DNA from: Liolophura sinensis
Taxonomy: Eukaryota; Mollusca; Polyplacophora; Chitonida; Chitonidae
Assembly (NCBI RefSeq): GCF_032854445.1
Contig: NC_088300.1
Location: 79,525,084 to 79,589,083 of the forward strand
Length of the DNA: 64,000 nucleotides
Direction: 5' to 3'
Shown piece by piece: positions 1 to 27,700 of the stretch. Within the stretch, counting starts at the first letter, position 1. Each line of letters opens with the position of its first letter. Both the position numbers and the translations under genes were made by a program. The notes under the pieces were generated by a model. It was given only the letters and a program-made list of their open reading frames with translations. It ran no database searches and was not told the origin of the DNA.

Positions 1-1790
1 ACATCTCTCATCACCTACACAGAAGCTGAGCTGCACTTGTCTCAACAGCCATACAGCAGCCTAGCTGCACGTGTCTCAACAGCCATACAGCAGCGTAGCT
101 GCATGTGTCTCAACACAAACCCGGCAGCCTAGCTGGAAGTGTCTCAGCCCCCACATAGCAGCCTAACGTGTCTGAAAACCCACACAGCAGCCTAGCTGGA
201 CGTGTCTCAACACCCACACAGAAGCCTAGCTTGACGTGTCTCAACACCCACAAAGCAGCCTAGCTGCAGGTGTCTCAACACCCACACAGCAGCCTAGCGT
301 GTCTCAACACCCACACAGCAGCCTAGCTGGACATGTCTCAACAGCCACACAGCAGCCTAGCTGGACAAGTCTCAACACCCACACAGAAGCCTAGCTTGAC
401 GTGTCTCAACACCCACAAAGCAGCCTAGCTGCAGGTGTCTCAACACCCACACAGCAGCCTAGCGTGTCTCAAAACCCACACAGCAGCCTAGCTGGACATG
501 TCTCAACACCCACACAGCAGCCTAGCTGAAAGTGTCTCAACACCCACACAGCAGCCTAGCTGGAAGTGTCTCAACACCCACACAGCAGCCTAGCTGCACG
601 TGTCTCAACACCCACACAGCAGCCTAGCTGCACGTGTTTGAACAGCCACACAGCAGCCTAGCTGGACAAGTCTCAACACCCACAGCAGCCTAGCTGGAAG
701 TGTCTCAACACCCACACAGAAGCCTAGCTGCACGTGTCTCAAAACCCACACAGCAGCCTAGCTGCTTGTGTCTCAACAGCCACACAGCAGCCTTGCTGGA
801 AGTGTCTCAACAGCCACACAGCAGCCTAGCTGGACGGGTCTCAACACCCACACAGCTGGACATGTCTCAACACCCACACAGCAGCCTAGCTGCATGTGTC
901 TCAACACTCACACAGCAGCCTAGCTGCACTTGTCTCATCACCCACACAGCAGCCTAGCTGGACGTGTCTCAACAGCCACACAGCAGCCTAGCTGGACGTG
1001 TCTCAACAGCCACACAGCAGCCTAGCTGCACGTGTCTCAACACCCAGACAGTGGCCTAGCTGGACGTGTTTCAACACCCACACAACAGCCTATCTGGACG
1101 TGTCTTAACAGCCACACAGCAGCTTTGGTGGATGTGTCTCAACACCCACACAGTAGCCTTGCTGGACGTGTCTCAACACCCACACAGCAGCTTAGCTGCA
1201 CGTGTCTCAACAGCCACACAGACGCCTAGCTGGACAAGTCCCAACAGCCACACAGCAGCCTAGCTGGACGTGTCACAACACCCACACAGCAGCCTAGCTG
1301 GACGTGTCTCAAGACCCACACAGGAGCCTAGCTGCACGTGTCTCAAAACCCACAAAGCAGCCTTGCTGGACGTGTCTCAACATCCACACAGTAGCCTTGC
1401 TGGACGTGTCACAACACCCACACAGCAGCCTAGCTGCACGTGTCTCAACAGCCACATAGCAGCCTAGCTGGACGTGTCTCAACACCCACACAGCAGCCTA
1501 GCTGGACGTGTCTCAAAACTCACACAGCAGGCTAGCTGCACGTGTCTCAAAACCCACACAGCAGCCTTGTTGGACATGTTTCAACACCCACACAGCAGCC
1601 TAGCTGCACATGTCTCAACAGCCACACAGCAGCCTAGCTGGACGTGTCTCAACACCCACACAGCAGCCTAGCTGGACGTACCTCAAAACTCACACAGCAG
1701 CCTAGCTGCACCTGTCTCAAAACCCACACAGCAGCCTTGTTGGACATGTCTCAACACCCACACAGCAGCTTAGCTGGACGTGTCTATCAC
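1..1790 (-). repeat. 34-bp minisatellite downstream of LMF1 exon 10 donor
   Basis: About 52 copies of a 34-bp unit with core AGCTGGACGTGTCTCAACAC; the array runs off the left edge. It starts directly after the exon 10 5' splice site. On the minus strand each unit (GTGGGTGTTGAGACACGTCC) resembles the intron start GTAAGTGATAGACACGTCC, so the array was probably seeded there. Point variants are mixed without obvious order. Confidence 0.93.
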
Positions 1791-1907: not shown

Positions 1908-4900
1908 CTGAAACCAAATAGAATCTCTTTGGGACAAATAAAGATGTAAAGGAACTCGGAGTATTATATTATGAAATATATATAATTGAAGAAAGATAAC
2001 AAAGTTTGTAAGTCTTTACACGTAGGTAATGTGCACACAATGTATGACAGTCTGTACACATAGGTAATGTACACACAATGTATGACAGCCTGTACACGAA
2101 GGTAATGTACACACAATGTATGACAGTCTATACAGGTAGGTAATGTACACACAATGTAAGACAGCCTGTACACGTAGGTAATGTACACACAATGTATGAC
2201 ACTCTGTACACGTAGGTAATGTACACACAATGTATGACAGCCTGCACACGTAGGTAATGTACACACAATGTATGACAGCCTGTACACGAAGGTAATGTAT
2301 ACACAATGTATGACAGTCTCTACACGTAGGTAATGTACACACAATGTATGACAGTCTGTACACGTAGGTAATGTGCACACATTGTATGACAGTCTCTACA
2401 CGTAGGTAATGTATACACAATGTATGACAGTCTCTACACGTAGGTAATGTACACAATGTATGACAAATGAAAATTAGAATTTTAGTAATTGAACATGTTT
2501 CAAATTCCTGTTTTAGAACAGAATAAAGACTTTACATAACAATACTTTACCTGGAAAGCTGCGAACCACATGAGCCAGTCAAGGCGGTAATGGTAAGGGG
2601 AGATAATGCAGGGGCGTCTGGTGATATTGCCCGGTTTACACTTGAACTGGTACTCCTGCCACACAGCCTGTGGACTGTAGGGATCAGAGCTATACGTGCC
2701 CTCGAATATCACCTCCGTTCTCTCCTTAGTTATGCTGCCACAAAATCAAACTTGCCTCAGTCTCAAAAAGCTCATTTCAAAGAGTAATAGAGCGTTTAAA
2801 GTCAGTTAATTTTAGTTCAAACAATGGTGCAACTTCTAAATGTGTAACCAATCTTAATGAATGTTAACAGTAAATATTTTGCCACAAGGCAACATCAGTG
2901 TGGCAACAGAGATGTCAATCAACAATGAAGCAAACTAATTACATGTAGGAATACCTCCATCACCATTATCAATCAACGACTAAGCAAACTACTTATATGG
3001 AGGAATACCTCCATCACCATTATCAATCAACGACTAAGCAAACTACTTATATGGAGGAATACCTCCATCACCATTATCGATCACCGACTAAGCAAACTAC
3101 TTATATGGAGGAATACCTCCATCACCATTATCAATCAACGACTAAGCAAACTACTTTTATGGAAGAATACCTCCATCACCATTATCAATCAACGACTAAG
3201 CAAACTACTTATGTGGAGGAATACCTCTATCACCATTATCAATCAACGACTAAGCAAACTACTTATGTGGAGGAATACCTCCATCACCATTATCGATCAA
3301 CGACTAAGCAAACTACTTATGTGGAGGAATACCTCCATCACCATTATCGATCAACGACTAACCAAACTACTTATATGTAGGAATACCTCCATCACCATTA
3401 TCAATCAACGACTAACCAAACTACATATATGGAGGAATACCTCCATCACCATTATCAATCAACGACTAACCAAACTACTTACATGGAGGAATACCTCCAT
3501 CAACATTATCAATCAACGACTAAGCAAACTACTTTTATGGAGGAATGCCTCCATCACCATTATCAATCAATGACTAAGCAAACTACTTTTATGGAAGAAT
3601 ACCTCCATCACCATTATCAATCAACGACTAACCAAACTACTTTTATGGAGGAATACCTCCATCACCATTATTAATCAACGACTAAGCAAACTACTTATAT
3701 GGAGGAATACCTCCATCACCATTATCAATCAACGACTAAGCAAACTACTTATATGGAGGAATACCTCTAACACCATTATCAATCAACGACTAAGCAAACT
3801 ACTTTTATGGAGGAATACCTCCATCACCATTATCAATCAACGACTAAGCAAACTACTTATATGGAGGAATACCTCCATCACCATTATCAATCAATGACTA
3901 AGCAAACTACTTATATGGGGGAATACCACGATCACCATTATCAATCAACGACTAAGCAAACTACTTATATGGGGGAATACCACGATCACCATTATCGATC
4001 AACGACTAAGCAAACTACTTATATGGAGGAATACCTCCATCACCATTATCAATCAATGACTAAGCAAACTACTTATATGGGGGAATACCACGATCACCAT
4101 TATCGATCAACGACTAACCAAACTACTTATATGGGGGAATACCACGATCACCATTATCGATCAACGACTAAGCAAACTACTTATATGGAGGAATACCTCC
4201 ATCACCATTATCGATCAACGATTAAGCAAACTACTTATGTGGAGGAATACCTCCATCACCATTATCAATCAACGACTAAGCAAACTACTTATATGGGGGA
4301 ATACCACGATCACCATTATCAATCAACGACTAAGCAAAGTACTTACATGGGGGAATACCATGATCACCATTATCAATCAACGACTAAGCAAACTACTTTT
4401 ATGGAGGAATACCTCCATCACCATTATCAATCAACGACTAAGCAAACTACTTATATGGGGGAATACCACGATCACCATTATCAATCAACGACTAAGCAAA
4501 CTACTTATATGGGGGAATACTACGATCACCGTTACTGACAAGTAAGTAAACTATTTACATGTAGCAATATCTTGATCATCATTATAAATCAACAATTAAG
4601 TTAACTAACAAAGGCTGCTGTGGAAAAATTAGAACTTAAGAAATACCTGGTTGGCATACAATTCACAAAAGCTCACACAAAACTAACCAGTTGTTCTCAC
4701 CTGCCAAAGGCCCCGTAGGTGTTCACAATCCTGAGTGAATCAAAAGAGGTGTTCATGGCCTGTCTGGAGGAGAGAAGGTTCTGTACCACAGGCAGGCTAA
4801 GATAAACCAGGGTACAACCAAGGCAAATGTTGTAAACACGTCGTACATAGTTACCTGAGCACAGCAGAGAACACAAATAACCTAAATATTTGTTTTCAAA

Positions 4901-7900
4901 TAGTAATTCATATAAAAACAACCAATCTCAGTATTTGTCCTGAATTTGTACAACATATAAAAACAACCAATCTCAGTATTTGTCCTTAAATTGTACAACA
5001 TATAAGAACAACCAATCTCAGTATTTGTCCTTAAATTGTACAACATATAAAAACAACCAATCTCAGTATTTGTCCTTAAATTGTACAACATATAAGAACA
5101 ACAAATCTCAGTATTTGTCCTTAAATTGTACAACATATAAGAACAACAAATCTCAGTATTTGTCCTTAAATTGTACAACATATAAGAACGACCAACCTCA
5201 GTATTTGTCCTTAAATTGTACAACATATAAAAACAACCAATCTCAGTATTTGTCCTTAAATTGTACAACATATAAAAACAACCAACCTCAGTATATACAA
5301 CATATAAGAACAACAAATCTCAGTATTTGTCCTGAATTTGTACAACATATAAAAACAACCAATCTCAGTATTTGTCCTTAAATTGTACAACATATAAGAA
5401 CAACCAATCTCAGTATTTGTCCTTAAATTGTACAACATATAAAAACAACCAATCTCAGTATTTGTCCTTAAATTGTACAACATATAAAAACAACCAATCT
5501 CAGTATTTGTCCTTAAAATGTACAACATATAAGAACAACCAATCTCAGCACTTGCCTTCACACAGTAAACATATATTTTACCAGGCAAACATGCATATGA
5601 AACAAAGAAAGGCCTAAACTATATAGACATAACTACTTACCTATTAAATTTCCTTATATTACATAATAAAGTGTGCCCTACCTAGAGAAAAGGTGAGGCT
5701 ATGTCCTGATCTGCATATATCTGTGCTCCCCTCAATAAAATGTGCCCTACCCAGAGTAGGAAGCCGGGCTATGCCCTAAGCTATATTTATCTATGCCAAC
5801 CCCAGAGGGCAGAGCTTTGCCCAGACCTGTAAGTATCTGTGCCACAGTGGCCAGTTTCTCAGTATATCACATAACAAAATGTGCCCCACCCCATGTAACA
5901 GACGGGGCTTTGCCCAGCTTGTGAGTCATCTGTATCTCTGTCACCCTCCACTGGGCAGAGTTCTCAGTATATCACATAACAAAATGTGCCCCACCCTGTG
6001 TAAGAGGCGGGGCTTTGCCCTGCTTGTGAGCCATCTGTATCTCTGTCACCCTCCACTGGGCAGAGTTCTCAGTATATCACATAACAAAATGTGCCCCACC
6101 CTGTGTAAGAGGCGGGGCTTTGCCCTGCTTGTGAGCCATCTGTATCTCTGTCACCCTCCACTGGGCAGAGTTCTCAGTATATCACATAACAAAATGTGCC
6201 TTACCCCGTGTAAGAGGCGGGGCTTTGCCCTGCTTGTGAGCCATCTGTATCTCTGTCACCCTCCACTGGGCAGAGTTCTCAGTATATCACATAACAAAAT
6301 GTGCCTTACCCCCTGTAAGAGGCGGGGCTTTGCCCTGCTTGTGAGCCATCTGTATCTCTGTCACCCTCCACTGGGCAGAGTTCTCAGTATATCACATAAC
6401 AAAATGTGCCCCACCCCGTGTAAGAGGCGGGGCTTTGCCCTGTTTGTGAGCCATCTGTATCTCTGTCACCCCCCAGCAGGTAGAGTTTCTCAGTATATCA
6501 CATAACAAAATGTGCCCCACCCTGTGTAAGAGGCGGGGCTTTGCCCTGCTTGTGAGCCATCTGTATCTCTGTCACCCTCCACTGGGCAGAGTTCTCAGTA
6601 TATCACATAACAAAATGTGCCCCACCCTGTGTAAGAGGCGGGGCTTTGCCCTGCTTGTGAGCCATCTGTATCTCTGTCACCCTCCACTGGGCAGAGTTCT
6701 CAGTATATCACATAACAAAATGTGCCTTACCCCGTGTAAGAGGCGGGGCTTTGCCCTGCTTGTGAGCCATCTGTATCTCTGTCACCCTCCAGCAGGCAGA
6801 GTTTCTCAGTATATCACATAACAAAATGTGCCCCACCCCGTGTAAGAGGCGGGGCTTTGCCCTGCTTGTGAGCCATCTGTATCTCTGTCACCCTCCACTG
6901 GGCAGAGTTCTCAGTATATCACATAACAAAATGTGCCCCACCCTGTGTAAGAGGCGGGGCTTTGCCCAGCTTGTGAGCCATCTGTATCTCTGTCACCCTC
7001 CACTGGGCAGAGTTCTTAGTATATCACATAACAAAATGTGCCCCACCCCGTGTAAGAGGCGGGGCTTTGCCCAGCTTGTGAGCCATCTGTATCTCTGTCA
7101 ACCTCCACTGGGCAGAGTTTTCAGTATATCACATAACAAAATGTGCCCCACCCCGTGTAAGAGGCGGGGCTTTGCCCTGCTTGTGAGCCATCTGTATCTC
7201 TGTCACCCTCCACTGGGCAGAGTTCTCAGTGCATCACAGAATAAAATGTGCCTTACCTAGTATAAGAGGCGGGGCTTTGCCCTGCTTGTGAGCCATCTGT
7301 ATCTCTGTCACCCTCCACTGGGCAGAGTTCTCAGTGTATCACAGAATAAAATGTGCCTTACCTAGTGTAAGAGGCGGGGCTTTGCCCAGCTTGTGAGCCA
7401 TCTGTATCTCTGTCACCCTCCAGTGGGCAGAGCCCCTCTTAGTAGAGAACATCCAGGACAGGCTGACATCATCAAAGCAGGCCAGGGACGGTAACATTGT
7501 CAACCAGTTGAGGAAGCTTAAATTACCGCTGATAATCAGGACTACCTGAAGGACATAGGACCAGATTACCGCTGATAATCAGGACTACCTGGAGGACATA
7601 GGACCAGATTACCGCTGATAATCAGGACTACATGAAGGACATAGGACCAGATTACCGCTGATAATCAGGACTACCTGAAGGACATAGGACCAGATTACCG
7701 CTGATAATCAGGACTACCTGGAGGACATAGGACCAGATTACCGCTGATAATCAGGACTACTTGAAGGACATAGGACCAGATTACCGCTGATAATCAGGAC
7801 TACCTGGAGGACATAGGACCAGATTACCGCTGATAATCAGGACTACCTGGAGGACATATGACCAGATCATCGCTGATAATCAGGACTACCTGGAGGACAT

Positions 7901-10900
7901 AGGACCAGATTACTGCTGATAATCATGTCTACTTGGAGGATATAGGACTTAATTACCACTGATAATCAGGACAACCTGGAGGAAATAGGACCAGATTACC
8001 ACTGATAATCAGGACTACATGAAGGACATAGGACCAGATTACCGCTGATAATCAGGACTACCAGAAGGACATAGGACCAGATTACCGCTGATAATCAGGA
8101 CTACCTGGAGTACATAGGACCAGATTACCGCTGATAATCAGGACTACATGAAGGACATAGGACCAGATTACCGCTGATAATCAGGACTACCTGAAGGACA
8201 TAGGACCAGATTACCGCTGATAATCAGGTCTACCTGGAGTACATAGGACCAGATTACCGCTGATAATCAGGACTACTTGAAGGACATAGGGCCAGATTAC
8301 CGCTGATAATCAGGACTACCTGGAGTACATAGGACCAGATTACCGCTGATAATCAGGACTACCTGGAGGATATAGGACTTAATTACCACTGATAATCAGG
8401 ACAACCTGGAGGACATAGGACCAGATTACCACTGATAATCAGGACTATCTGAAGGACATAGGACCAGATTACCGCTGATAATCAGGACTACCTGAAGGGT
8501 ATAGAACCAGATTAGGTTTACACTGTGTAATATTAACTCTATGCCATCTACATACTGGTACTGAAAAAATCCGTCAGTTATATCTCATTTTACAATGGAT
8601 ATTTTCCTGAAATTTTACAATTTTTTACATTTGTTATATCTGATTTTGATATTAACATTTGCTTAAAAGAAATGTTCAATTTCTCTGCTTGTAAAATACC
8701 TTACCTGAAATAAAATCTGAATTACTCCACCGGCAATCATGAATCTCCGTGGCAACACAAGCAGAAATGGGGCAACCAGCTCAACAAAGTGGTTCGTCAA
8801 AGTCTCAAATTTGTGGAAGATTTCAGGTGACTGATGCAGGTAATAACTGAGTGGATTGGGAACTGGCTGAGTCTAGATAACAGAAGAAAAATAACTGACA
8901 GGATTGGGAACTGGTTGAATCTAGATAGAAAAAGTTTATTCACTTTTTATAATATATGGATGGTGTTAGTCAAGAATCTTACACTTTCAAGTTCATGGGT
9001 GGAAAAAAACAGTCAAGGCAGAAACAGAATCCAGCAGGGATAGGCTGGAAAACATAGCATTATTGGTTAGCTGTTACCTGTCTGACCTCAGTGATGAATT
9101 AGGTCAGATCAATGTGACTGTATTGGCCCAGACAAGTAGCCCCTGACAAATGAAGCTACATCACTTCAGACAGCTTCTGACTAATGAGGCTGCATCAGTT
9201 CAGACAAGTTGGCCCTGACAAATGAGGCCGGGTCAGTTCAGACAGCCCTTAACCCCTGACTAACAAGACTTCAGACAAGACAACTAATTAGCTCAATTAA
9301 TGAAGATGTATTAGTTAAGATATCCCCTGACTAATGAGGATGCATCTCTTCAGACAGCCAATGACTAATGAGAGTGTATCAGTTCAGACAGCTCCTGACT
9401 AGTGAGGCAGCATCTGCTCAGAGAAGTACAGTATCCCCTGACTAATGACATATAGCATCAGTTACCAAAGCCCCTGAATTATGAGGCTGCATCAGTTCAG
9501 ACAAGTACAGTATCCCCTGTCTAATAAGGCTGCATTTCTTCAGACAGCCCCTGACTAATGAGGCTGCATCAGCTTAGACAAGTTGCCCCTGACAAATGTC
9601 TCAGTTCAGACAGCCCCAAACCCCATATCAGACATATCAGGCTTCAGACAATTATTTCACCCTGACTAATGAGGCTGCATCAGTTCAGAGTGCTCCTGAC
9701 TAATGAGGCTGCATCAGTTCAGACAAGTAGCCCCTAACCACAGAGGCTGGAACACTTCACATATGTAACCCTGAATAATGAGGCTGCATGTTGACAGCCC
9801 CTGACTAATGAGGCTACATGTTCAAACAACCCCTGACTAATGAGGCTACATGTTCAGTCATCCCCACACTAATGAGGCTACATGTTCAGTCAGCCCCTGA
9901 CTAATGAAGCTACATGTTCAGACAGCCCCTGACTAATGAGGCTACATGTTCAGACAGCCCCTGACTAATGAAGCTACATGTTCAGACATCCCCTGACTAA
10001 TGAGGCTACATGTTCAGACAGCCCCTGACTAATGAAGCCACATGTTCAGACATCCCCAGACTAATGAGGCTACATGTTCAGACAGCCCCTGACTAATGAA
10101 GCTACAAGTTCAGTCAGCCCCTGACTAATGAAGCTACATGTTCAGACAGCCCCTGACTAATGAAGCTACATGTTCAGACAGCCCCTGACTAATGAGGCTA
10201 CATGTTCAGACAGCCCCTGACTAATGAAGCTACATGTTCAGACAGCCCCTGACTAATGAGGCTACATGTTCAGACATCCCCTGACTAATGAGGCTACATG
10301 TTCAGACAGCCCCTGACTAATGAAGCTACATGTTCAGACATCCCCTGACTAATGAGGCTACATGTTCAGACAGCCCCTGACTAATGAAGCTACAAGTTCA
10401 GTCAGCCCCTGACTAATGAAGCTACATGTTCAGACAGCCCCTGACTAATGAAGCCACATGTTCAGACAGCCCCTGACTAATGAAGATACATGTTCAGACA
10501 TCCCCTGACTAATGAGGCTACATGTTCAGTCATCCCCTGACTAATGAGGCTACATGTTCAGACAGCCCCTGACTAATGAAGCTACATGTTCAGACATCCC
10601 CTGACTAATGAAGCTACACGTTCAGACATCCCCTGACTAATGAGGCTACATGTTCAGTCATTCCCTGACTAATGAGGCTACATGTTCAGACATCCCCTGA
10701 CTAATGAAGCTACGTGTTCAGACATCCCCTGACTAATGAAGCTACAAGTTCAGACAGCCCCTGACTAATGAAGCTACGTGTTCAGACATTCCCTGACTAA
10801 TGAGGCTACATGTTCAGACATCCCCTGACTAATGAAGCTACATGTTCAGACAGCCCCTGACTAATGAAGCCACATGTTCAGACAGCCCCTGACTAATGAA

Positions 10901-24736: not shown

Positions 24737-27700
24737 CTAAATAAACAATAATTAAAAATACGACTAGGTTAAAACTTATTTAATTATGTAATGTATATCC
24801 GTTAGTCCGATAGCAGCAAGACACAAATTTGGTTTATATCTTGTAAACAGTTTTACTGAGATTGATTATGAGGTTTGTTACTGAACGCACCTGTTACTGA
24901 GGTTGGTTAAGTGTTTTGCTTCTGCACTCACTCGTTGCTGAGGTTGGTTACGAGTTTTGCTTCTGTATTCACCTGTTGTTGAGGTTAGTTACGTTTTTGT
25001 TTCTCTACTCACCTGTTACTGAGGTTGGTTATGAATTTTGTTTCTGCACTAACCTCAGACAGAGGTTGGTTATGAGTTTTGTGTCTGCACTAACCTGTTG
25101 CACTAACCCGAGCTGAGGTTGGTTACAAGTTCTGCTTCTGCATTCACCTGTTGCTGAGGTTGGTTATGTTTTTGTTTCTGTTCTCACGTATTACTGAGGT
25201 TGGTTATGGATTTTGTTTCTGCACTCACCTGTTACTGAGGTTGGTTATAAGATTTATATTTGCACTCACCTGTGGTAGAAGGATGCCAAGCGCTATTCCA
25301 CCTACTACCAGCGCATGCGCCTCTATCCACGTGCCCAGTGCCTTAATACATCCGTCCGTGTAAATAGTGTTTCCTATCTTGGACTGAAAGGTGTTCAAAA
25401 GGTAATGCATTGCATCAGCTGTTACATGTAACTATACTCGCCAAAAGGTAATGCATTGTGTCGACTGTTACAGGTAACTGTACTCGCCAAAGGCGTGCGC
25501 GTGGAGCGCTAATAGTAAGCTATAAATTAATAGACTGCAATTTAAATCTTGAAACAATTTGAAGAAATAAATACACTGGCGAGATAATGTATACAGACAA
25601 AGCATATTAAACAACCAATGTACAGTTTTCTAGCGAACGTCTGCGAACGTTCAAGTAAGTAAGAGAGAAATCAAGAAGACATCTAAAATATGGGAATACC
25701 TTTATCAAAAAAACATAGGCCTTAAGAGAACCATACAGCTGAATCGTCGGCCATGACAGGTCGGCAGAAACCCAGTGTATAGCTAGGCCACATCCACTCT
25801 TTTGAAATCCCCATAATAAGCTTATCCCTGTGATAAGCTACGCCTCTATTAAACCATATTCAAACGCTTGGCCCCTTTAGTGATGAGCTACTCCACTATT
25901 TAAACCATATTCAAACGCCTGGCCCCTTTAGTGATAAGCTACTCCACTATTTAAACCATATTCAAACTCCTGGCCCCTTTAGTGATAAGCTACTCCACTA
26001 TTTAAACCATATTCAAACGCCTGGCCCCTTTAGTGATAAGCTACTCCACTATTTAAACCATATTCAAACGCCTGACCCCTTTGGTGATAAGCAACTCCTC
26101 TATTAAGCCAGAATCAAACGCCTGACCCCTTTAGTTATGAGCTACTCAGGAGTAGCTGGCCCCTTTAGTGATAAGCTACTCCACTATTTAAACCATATTC
26201 AAACGCCTGACTAATTTGGTGATAAGCAACTCCTCTATTAAGCCAGAATCAAACGCCTGACCCCTTTAGTTATGAGCTACTCAGGAGTAGCTGGCCCTTT
26301 TAGTGATAAGCTACTCCACTTTTTAAACCATATTCAAACGCCTGAACCCTTTAGTGATAAGCAACTCCTCTATTAAGCCAGAATCAAACGCCTGACCACT
26401 TTAGTGATAAGCTACTCCTCTATTTAAGCCAGATTCAAACGCCTGACCACTTTGGTGATAAGCTACTCCTCTATTAAGCCAGAATCAAACGCCTGACCCC
26501 TTTAGTTATGAGCTACTCAGGAGTAGCTGGCCCCTTTAGTGATAAGCTACTCCTCTATTTAAGCCAGATTCAAACGCCTGACCCCTTTGGTGATAAGCAA
26601 CTCCTCTATTAAGCCAGATTCAAACGCCTGACCCCTTTAGTTATGAGCTACTCAGGAGTAGCTGGCCCCTTTTGTGATAAGCTACGCCTCTATTTAAGCC
26701 AGATTTAAACGCCTGGCCCCTTTGGTGATAAGCTCCTCCTTTTTAAAAGCTAGATTCTAGATTTCAGTGATAAGCTTTTTGTCTATTTAAGCTATCAGTG
26801 AAAGTCAAATGGTATTAGGCTACGCGAAAGAGAACTGTGTAGGAACATAAAGTTCCCAACAAGACCACATCTATGATTCAGTTATGCAGCCTAGGTAACT
26901 GATGTCACCTACTGCAACTTCTAGTAGCTTTGTCCTGAATATTTTTGGAACTAGCTGCTTTCTTGATAACACTTGTTCTTTTGGCATTAGATGTGTTTTT
27001 GGTATCAGGTATACTTACAGATTCCTGCTTCAGGGCATTTGCACCACACTGGAGATTTATGAGATCCCCCTAAAATGACGACAGGTACACACTTATATAC
27101 ACGTTATGCGCAATCTGGTTAAAACATACAGCACTGGCCTCACCAACATAAAGCACTGGCCTCACCAACATAAAGCACTGGCCTCACCAACGTAAAGCAC
27201 TGGCCTCACCAACATAAAGCACTGGCCTCACAAACATACAGCACTGGCCTCACCAACATACTGCACTGGCCTCACAAACATACAGCACTGGCCTCACCAA
27301 CATAAAGCACTGGCCTCACAAACATACAGCACTGGCCTCACCAACATACTGCACTGGCCTCACAAACATACAGCACTGGCCTCACAAACATACAGCACTG
27401 GCCTCACAAACATACGACACTGGCCTCATCCACATACAGCAATGGCCTCACAAACACACAACACTGGCTTCACCAACATACTGCACTGGCCTCACAAACA
27501 TACAGCACTGGCTTCACCAACATACTGCACTGGCCTCACAAACATACGACACTGGCCTCATCCATATACAGCACTGGCCTCACAAACATACAGCACTGGC
27601 CTCATCCACATACAGCACTGGCCTCACAAACATACAGCACTGGCCTCACAAACATACGACACTGGCTTCACCAACATACTGCACTGGCCTCACAAACATA

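Follow-up and report, generated by a model that had tools for sequence, protein, structure and literature searches.

In a minus-strand LMF1 gene of Liolophura sinensis, the end of exon 7, its 5' splice site and the beginning of intron 7 recur together as a tandem array in intron 7, and a separate array occupies the other border of the same exon. We consider it probable that the donor array is an intronic minisatellite founded by a tandem duplication across the boundary of exon 7 and intron 7, and that this duplication was tolerated, with splicing staying on the exon side.

LMF1 exon 7 and its donor array

The window (the whole stretch of 64,000 nucleotides analysed here) lies in contig NC_088300.1 (C6 below; 82.49 Mb in a genome of 609 Mb), about 2.9 Mb short of the contig end. 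A previous interpretation made from the letters of the window (hereafter the sequence-only reading) had assigned the gene to LMF1, and Pfam bore this out: the LMF1 and LMF1_C models matched successive minus-strand exons piecewise, including exon 6 (LMF1, 6.9e-19), the frame of exon 7 (LMF1, 5.4e-9) and a later exon (LMF1_C, 4.7e-23). Based on the Pfam match, the frame, the splice sites and self-comparison, exon 7 was placed at 7362..7545 on the minus strand, and it appears as the founder copy at both of its ends. Its length of 184 bp is as the same reading had given it. The exon is preceded by CAG and ends in TAG/GTAAGG, with the true donor GT at 7360..7361. This donor is supported by the phase match to exon 8, which begins at 4854, because the GT of exon 8 joins the last G of exon 7 and the frame stays open.

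A 105-bp array, of which exon 7 supplies the outermost copy, extends into intron 7. Counted with the exon copy, it was reported by TRF at 5856-7432 (period 105, 15.0 copies, 95% matches); a 421-bp period, equal to four units, slightly outscored the single unit (2814 vs 2793). TRF, a listing of the units and alignment placed the 14 extra copies at 5856..7361 (minus strand), each consisting of the exon end, the 5' splice site and the intron start, namely the final 68-71 exon bases, the splice site and ∼34-37 intron bases. The 71 coding bases at 7362..7432 (minus strand; blastn, with the TRF end at 7432) double as part of the unit. When exon 7 was compared with the window by blastn, exon nucleotides 114 to ∼181 (window 7432 to ∼7362) were found at 14 further sites with 91-97% identity (E ≤ 7.5e-23), and in the nearest copy the alignment reached exon nucleotide 184. 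Mismatches between the exon copy and the units ranged from 4 to 15 of 105 positions, the nearest unit being the closest (4) and the farthest the most different (15). The array was not found elsewhere in the genome in a search that skipped simple repeats and very common words.

The sequence-only reading had described a 105-bp array built from the end of exon 7 and its splice donor, and had proposed a self-comparison of the exon with the intron as a check; TRF and blastn agree on this origin of the unit, and the 14 further matches are the outcome of that check. Its fifteen or more repeats correspond to the 15 copies counted with the exon, plus decayed remnants. The mixed exon/intron composition that it gave was right, whereas its figures of 65 coding and 40 intron bases have to be replaced by those above. 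Similarly, the array is real but its start had been set at 5655, and the part from 5655 to 5855 includes decayed remnants (5660..5855 on the minus strand, limits by eye), with the regular array beginning at 5856. One decayed piece (∼5734-5815) shows 75% identity. An open frame of 241 aa was also observed on the plus strand opposite the donor array (window 5780-6505), which is probably mechanical because the 105-bp unit is divisible by three.

That the assembly has inflated or misplaced the repeat is a reading that draws on the general difficulty of tandem repeats only, and we regard it as extremely unlikely in view of the diverged units, the four-unit higher-order period, the decayed far end and the like anatomy at other loci (see below), where the arrays differ in sequence.

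Acceptor array and single-copy core

A separate acceptor array on the other border of exon 7 had also been proposed, and a 43-bp array was found there (TRF, 23.1 copies). Its 22 extra copies (7546..8514, minus strand; TRF, unit listing and column counts) contain the intron end and the 3' splice site, followed by 24 bases from the start of the exon, and exon nucleotides 1-24 were accordingly seen to recur in the array by blastn. The middle 89 bp of the exon (nucleotides 25-113) lie outside both arrays, and no other blastn alignment in the window was obtained for them except one gapped row starting at nucleotide 94. One exon thus has two arrays of unlike sequence, one per border.

In form, both arrays are minisatellites, that is, long arrays of head-to-tail units of roughly 10-100 bp (here 105 bp × 15.0 and 43 bp × 23.1); homogenised units and higher-order blocks are represented by the 95% matches and the 421-bp four-unit period. 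The donor array further resembles the type known from human ABCA7 in that it abuts an exon whose 5' splice site lies inside the unit.

State of the splice sites

The GT was present in all 14 extra donor copies, and positions +3 to +6 read AAGG in 4 of them (GTAAGG) and GGGG in 10 (GTGGGG). Using a 5' splice-site scoring matrix, we obtained 9.8 bits for the exon copy, 9.8 for the nearest copy, 8.2 for three copies and 5.6-6.4 for ten copies. Thus, the view that many units keep a good GTAAGG donor stands for the GT itself (14/14) and is overstated for the longer motif (4/14, with ten copies at 5.6-6.4 bits). In the acceptor array, the AG was intact in 15 of the 22 copies and lost in 7. In both LMF1 arrays, splice-site columns varied more than other columns (Mann-Whitney p 0.03 and 0.05), which is only a hint because array copies are not independent. 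A systematic decay of decoy sites was considered and is not claimed, as copies at other loci equal or beat the exon donor. Read-through from the true donor is predicted by translation to meet a TGA that starts 20 nt beyond the exon end (7339..7341, minus strand); the sequence-only reading had correctly placed such a stop within the first unit.

Same architecture in other genes

The sequence-only reading had implied that the arrangement is unique, which is contradicted by a tetraspanin-like exon in the window, by other genes and by a human precedent, as described in the available part of its report (PMC5954066). The tetraspanin-like exon ends at 25270 in CAG/GTGAGT, and a 41-bp array starts at that donor (24853..25273, minus strand; TRF and sequence; Pfam Tetraspanin E 0.01, below the cut-off). 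Genome-wide statements rest on pattern counts, with the first 100 matches listed, and on sampled loci. For 22 donor loci on contig C1 the exon-side flanks were taken, 16 from among the CAGGTRAGT matches listed (29-59 bp steps) and six as clusters among the single-motif matches listed. Seven of these arrays start at the end of a homology-recognised exon: ABCC/MRP (1.6e-15), OGDH (3.1e-20), RNA polymerase III RPC1 (5.9e-9), BMS1 (7.1e-9), a Mot1-like helicase, which we take to be Mot1/BTAF1 (1.8e-18), an Fe-hydrogenase-like protein (Pfam 3.1e-13) and a fucosidase-like protein (3e-4, below the Pfam cut-off). Their units measure 38-59 bp, of which the exon contributes 21 to ∼49 nt in six loci and ∼3 nt at the fucosidase-like exon. 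As a share of the unit, the exon part ranges from ∼3/38 to 35/40 nt, as random breakpoints would yield.

No homology-verified exon was seen in the other 15 of the 22 donor loci. Four of the 22 are plausible exon-rooted candidates: L006 (PDB match, E 0.06), L025 (exon by eye), and L022 and L024, both with no Pfam match. In L011 an exon-like stretch, with no Pfam match, precedes the unit and is not part of it, and no clear exon was recognised by eye in ten loci (L004 with L058, L005, L008, L009, L010, L015, L016, L020, L021 with L059, and L023).

Two of the exon-rooted loci bear on the choice of donor. At the RPC1 locus (L017, C1:14.89 Mb) the exon-side GTAAAT is weaker than all six copies (GTAAGT), and at the ABCC locus (L018, C1:15.60 Mb) the exon-side site is GTTAGT, with GTGAGT in 4 of 8 copies and the GT lost in 2 of 8. 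Since these exon-side donors score below many of their own copies, strength alone cannot set the choice if the exon-side donor is used; for the same reason, neutral tolerance is not self-evident at these two loci. At each of the 10 loci tested, read-through met a stop 1-173 nt beyond the donor.

These observations also bear on whether the arrays are functional; they might, for instance, offer U1 a row of binding sites or act as alternative splice sites under regulation. The invariant GT of the LMF1 donor copies and, at other loci, the many copies with a near-consensus donor would agree with a function, as would human ABCA7, where array length tracks exon skipping and lower expression according to the available part of the report (PMC5954066). 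However, 10 of the 14 LMF1 donor copies are weakened, the acceptor AG is gone in 7 of 22, read-through stops early at every locus tested, and loci found by a donor motif are biased to retained donors. We therefore judge a function of the arrays to be very unlikely.

Minisatellite-rich setting

Arrays make up 36% of the window (TRF rows merged by hand) and as much as 84% of LMF1 intron 6 and 86% of intron 7. An LMF paralogue elsewhere on this contig (61.28-61.30 Mb) has four TRF rows at three places in 9.5 kb, and no TRF rows in the next 9 kb. With the distal region so dense in minisatellites, the capture of a junction by chance is to be expected. Among eight exon borders that could be placed to the base (8705, 7545, 7362, 4854, 4701, 2551, 1795 and 25270), three lie in arrays, a fraction similar to the 36% that arrays make up of the window, although the eight are a non-random choice.

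Several further arrays were observed nearby. A 34-bp array (window 6-1785, continuing in L003 at 9102-10000) starts ∼9 bp inside the intron after the LMF1 exon that ends at 1795, and the donor lies outside this array. In L003 at 2923-3805 (C6:79518006-79518888) there is a 74-bp array of 12 copies, the unit of which shows on the minus strand an acceptor-like GTTTCAG/A and a donor-like CAG/GTACGT on either side of a short open stretch; this may be a small exon amplified as a whole. On contig C1, TTTGCAG arrays crowd the ends, 16 of 32 loci lying below 7 Mb or above 90 Mb, which is 14% of the contig (hand count, matches listed to 95.7 of 96.4 Mb).

Are splice junctions preferred birthplaces?

An alternative to capture by chance is that minisatellites arise preferentially at splice junctions, for instance by way of co-transcriptional R-loops or of repair where exon and intron meet. 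Genome-wide, triple CAGGTRAGT occurred 1093 times vs 251 for the reversed motif at 29-59 bp steps and 1619 vs 177 at 60-90 bp steps, compared with 19957 vs 7605 for the single motif. The excess of tandem donors per single motif over the reversed control could mean that junctions are preferred. The acceptor motif pointed in the same direction with a weak contrast (TTTGCAG in triplicate, 775 vs 401 reversed). On the other hand, the matches cluster in few loci, with dozens within one array, and the per-locus ratio in C1:0.5-18.8 Mb (16 to 4, hand count of the matches listed) is not clearly above the single-site ratio of 2.6 to 1. The control is also imperfect, as real donors lie within genes whereas the reversed motif may lie anywhere. 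Moreover, when splice-motif scores were compared with shuffled units in 23 arrays (window and L003), low p-values were few and no general enrichment was found. On this balance, preferred birth at junctions is an unlikely explanation.

The acceptor and control loci were sampled in a similar way. From 32 loci hand-counted among the TTTGCAG matches listed, 20 were taken, and one of them has a Pfam-matched exon (L054, C1:92.33 Mb; DHHC 3.1e-5, below the cut-off); the array at this locus seems to enter the DHHC-palmitoyltransferase exon. At L050 (C1:53.59 Mb) a deoxyribose-phosphate aldolase-like exon was recognised by eye only, with no Pfam match, and the exon at L040 is plausible only, again with no Pfam match. 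As controls, 12 loci were taken from 21 hand-counted among the reversed-motif matches listed. One of them (L035, C1:93669400-93672900) has at its right edge a 43-bp acceptor array running into an Ig exon (Pfam I-set 8.4e-7), and in the other 11 no edge exon was seen by eye, with L031 and L032 covered in part and L027 and L036 covered short of their right edges.

By proportion from 100 matches listed, we arrived at ∼175 tandem-donor loci, a very rough figure that applies to a single strict motif and spacing. For this genome, a large class of junction-born minisatellites, possibly arising at splice junctions by preference, in which the decoys are equal or stronger and the exon-side donor is still picked, may be proposed, though tentatively, and we are inclined to doubt it.

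A model for the origin of the LMF1 arrays

Returning to the junction-straddling duplication at LMF1, the founding segment would have comprised the 5' splice site with ∼70 coding bases before it and ∼35 intron bases after it, and may have arisen via slippage or unequal exchange. The array would then have grown into the intron by more duplications, including four-unit blocks, and a second, unrelated duplication of the same type would account for the acceptor border. Such a duplication should be nearly neutral because it disrupts neither the reading frame nor the splice site on the exon side. Splicing most likely takes place at the two sites flanking the single-copy core, which would leave the protein as it was; transcripts that used a donor deeper in the array would encounter the TGA and presumably be lost through decay of misspliced transcripts. 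Selection would hold the exon copy, and the intron-side copies would drift and homogenise.

Significance and comparison with known systems

The choice of the spliceosome among several good 5' splice sites seems to have been studied mostly with built constructs. In classic globin-gene constructs, duplicated splice sites were used, so that tandem donors or acceptors competed in one transcript; unlike the LMF1 arrays, these were laboratory-made and had few copies. With several genes carrying a long row of donor copies behind the original donor, the rules of proximity, strength and exon definition could be read from ordinary RNA sequencing, and if the junction-born class is true, it would amount to a natural mass experiment on splice-site choice. 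In addition, the birth of minisatellites is here tied to gene structure: arrays fill 84-86% of LMF1 introns 6 and 7, and an exon end that selection keeps in place offers a fixed founder unit, against which the growth of an array is easier to read. The ABCA7 case, in the available part of its report, indicates that donor arrays can matter for disease (PMC5954066).

In human ABCA7, as far as the available part of that report goes, intron 18 contains a 25-bp VNTR whose first two unit bases are the donor GT of exon 18, an isoform retaining one VNTR unit acquires a premature stop, and VNTR length is associated with exon 19 skipping and lower expression (PMC5954066). The LMF1 array is similar in being an exon-adjoining intronic tandem array with the exon's splice donor in its unit. 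Unlike LMF1, the ABCA7 unit has no coding sequence reported in that part of the source, and a single border is involved (PMC5954066), whereas 68-71 coding bases form part of each LMF1 unit, arrays have grown from both borders of the exon and the pattern extends to other genes.

Intron gain by tandem genomic duplication (PMC3443670) likewise starts from a tandemly duplicated segment with splice-site sequence. In the available part of that report, one in-exon duplication gives rise to a new intron that lies between two AGGT copies (PMC3443670), whereas in LMF1 there are many intronic copies. The acceptor of intron 7, before exon 8, lies outside the donor array, and in the LMF paralogue the matching exon ends ∼20 codons earlier (by eye). 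The intronic minisatellites of C. elegans near multiple splicing decisions (PMC4039745) are comparable in being intronic and beside splicing decisions; they carry regulatory motifs, and copies of exon borders are not mentioned in the available part of that source (PMC4039745). In earthworm metallothionein, intronic minisatellites have been described, and units with splice sites are again not mentioned in the part available (PMC12783039). No genome-wide set of junction-born arrays was found in the titles and abstract starts of the open-licence papers surveyed. Thus, the kind of array is already known from the donor-including VNTR of human ABCA7, on the available part of its report, and what is new in Liolophura sinensis is the coding sequence in the unit, the involvement of both borders of one exon and the recurrence in several genes.
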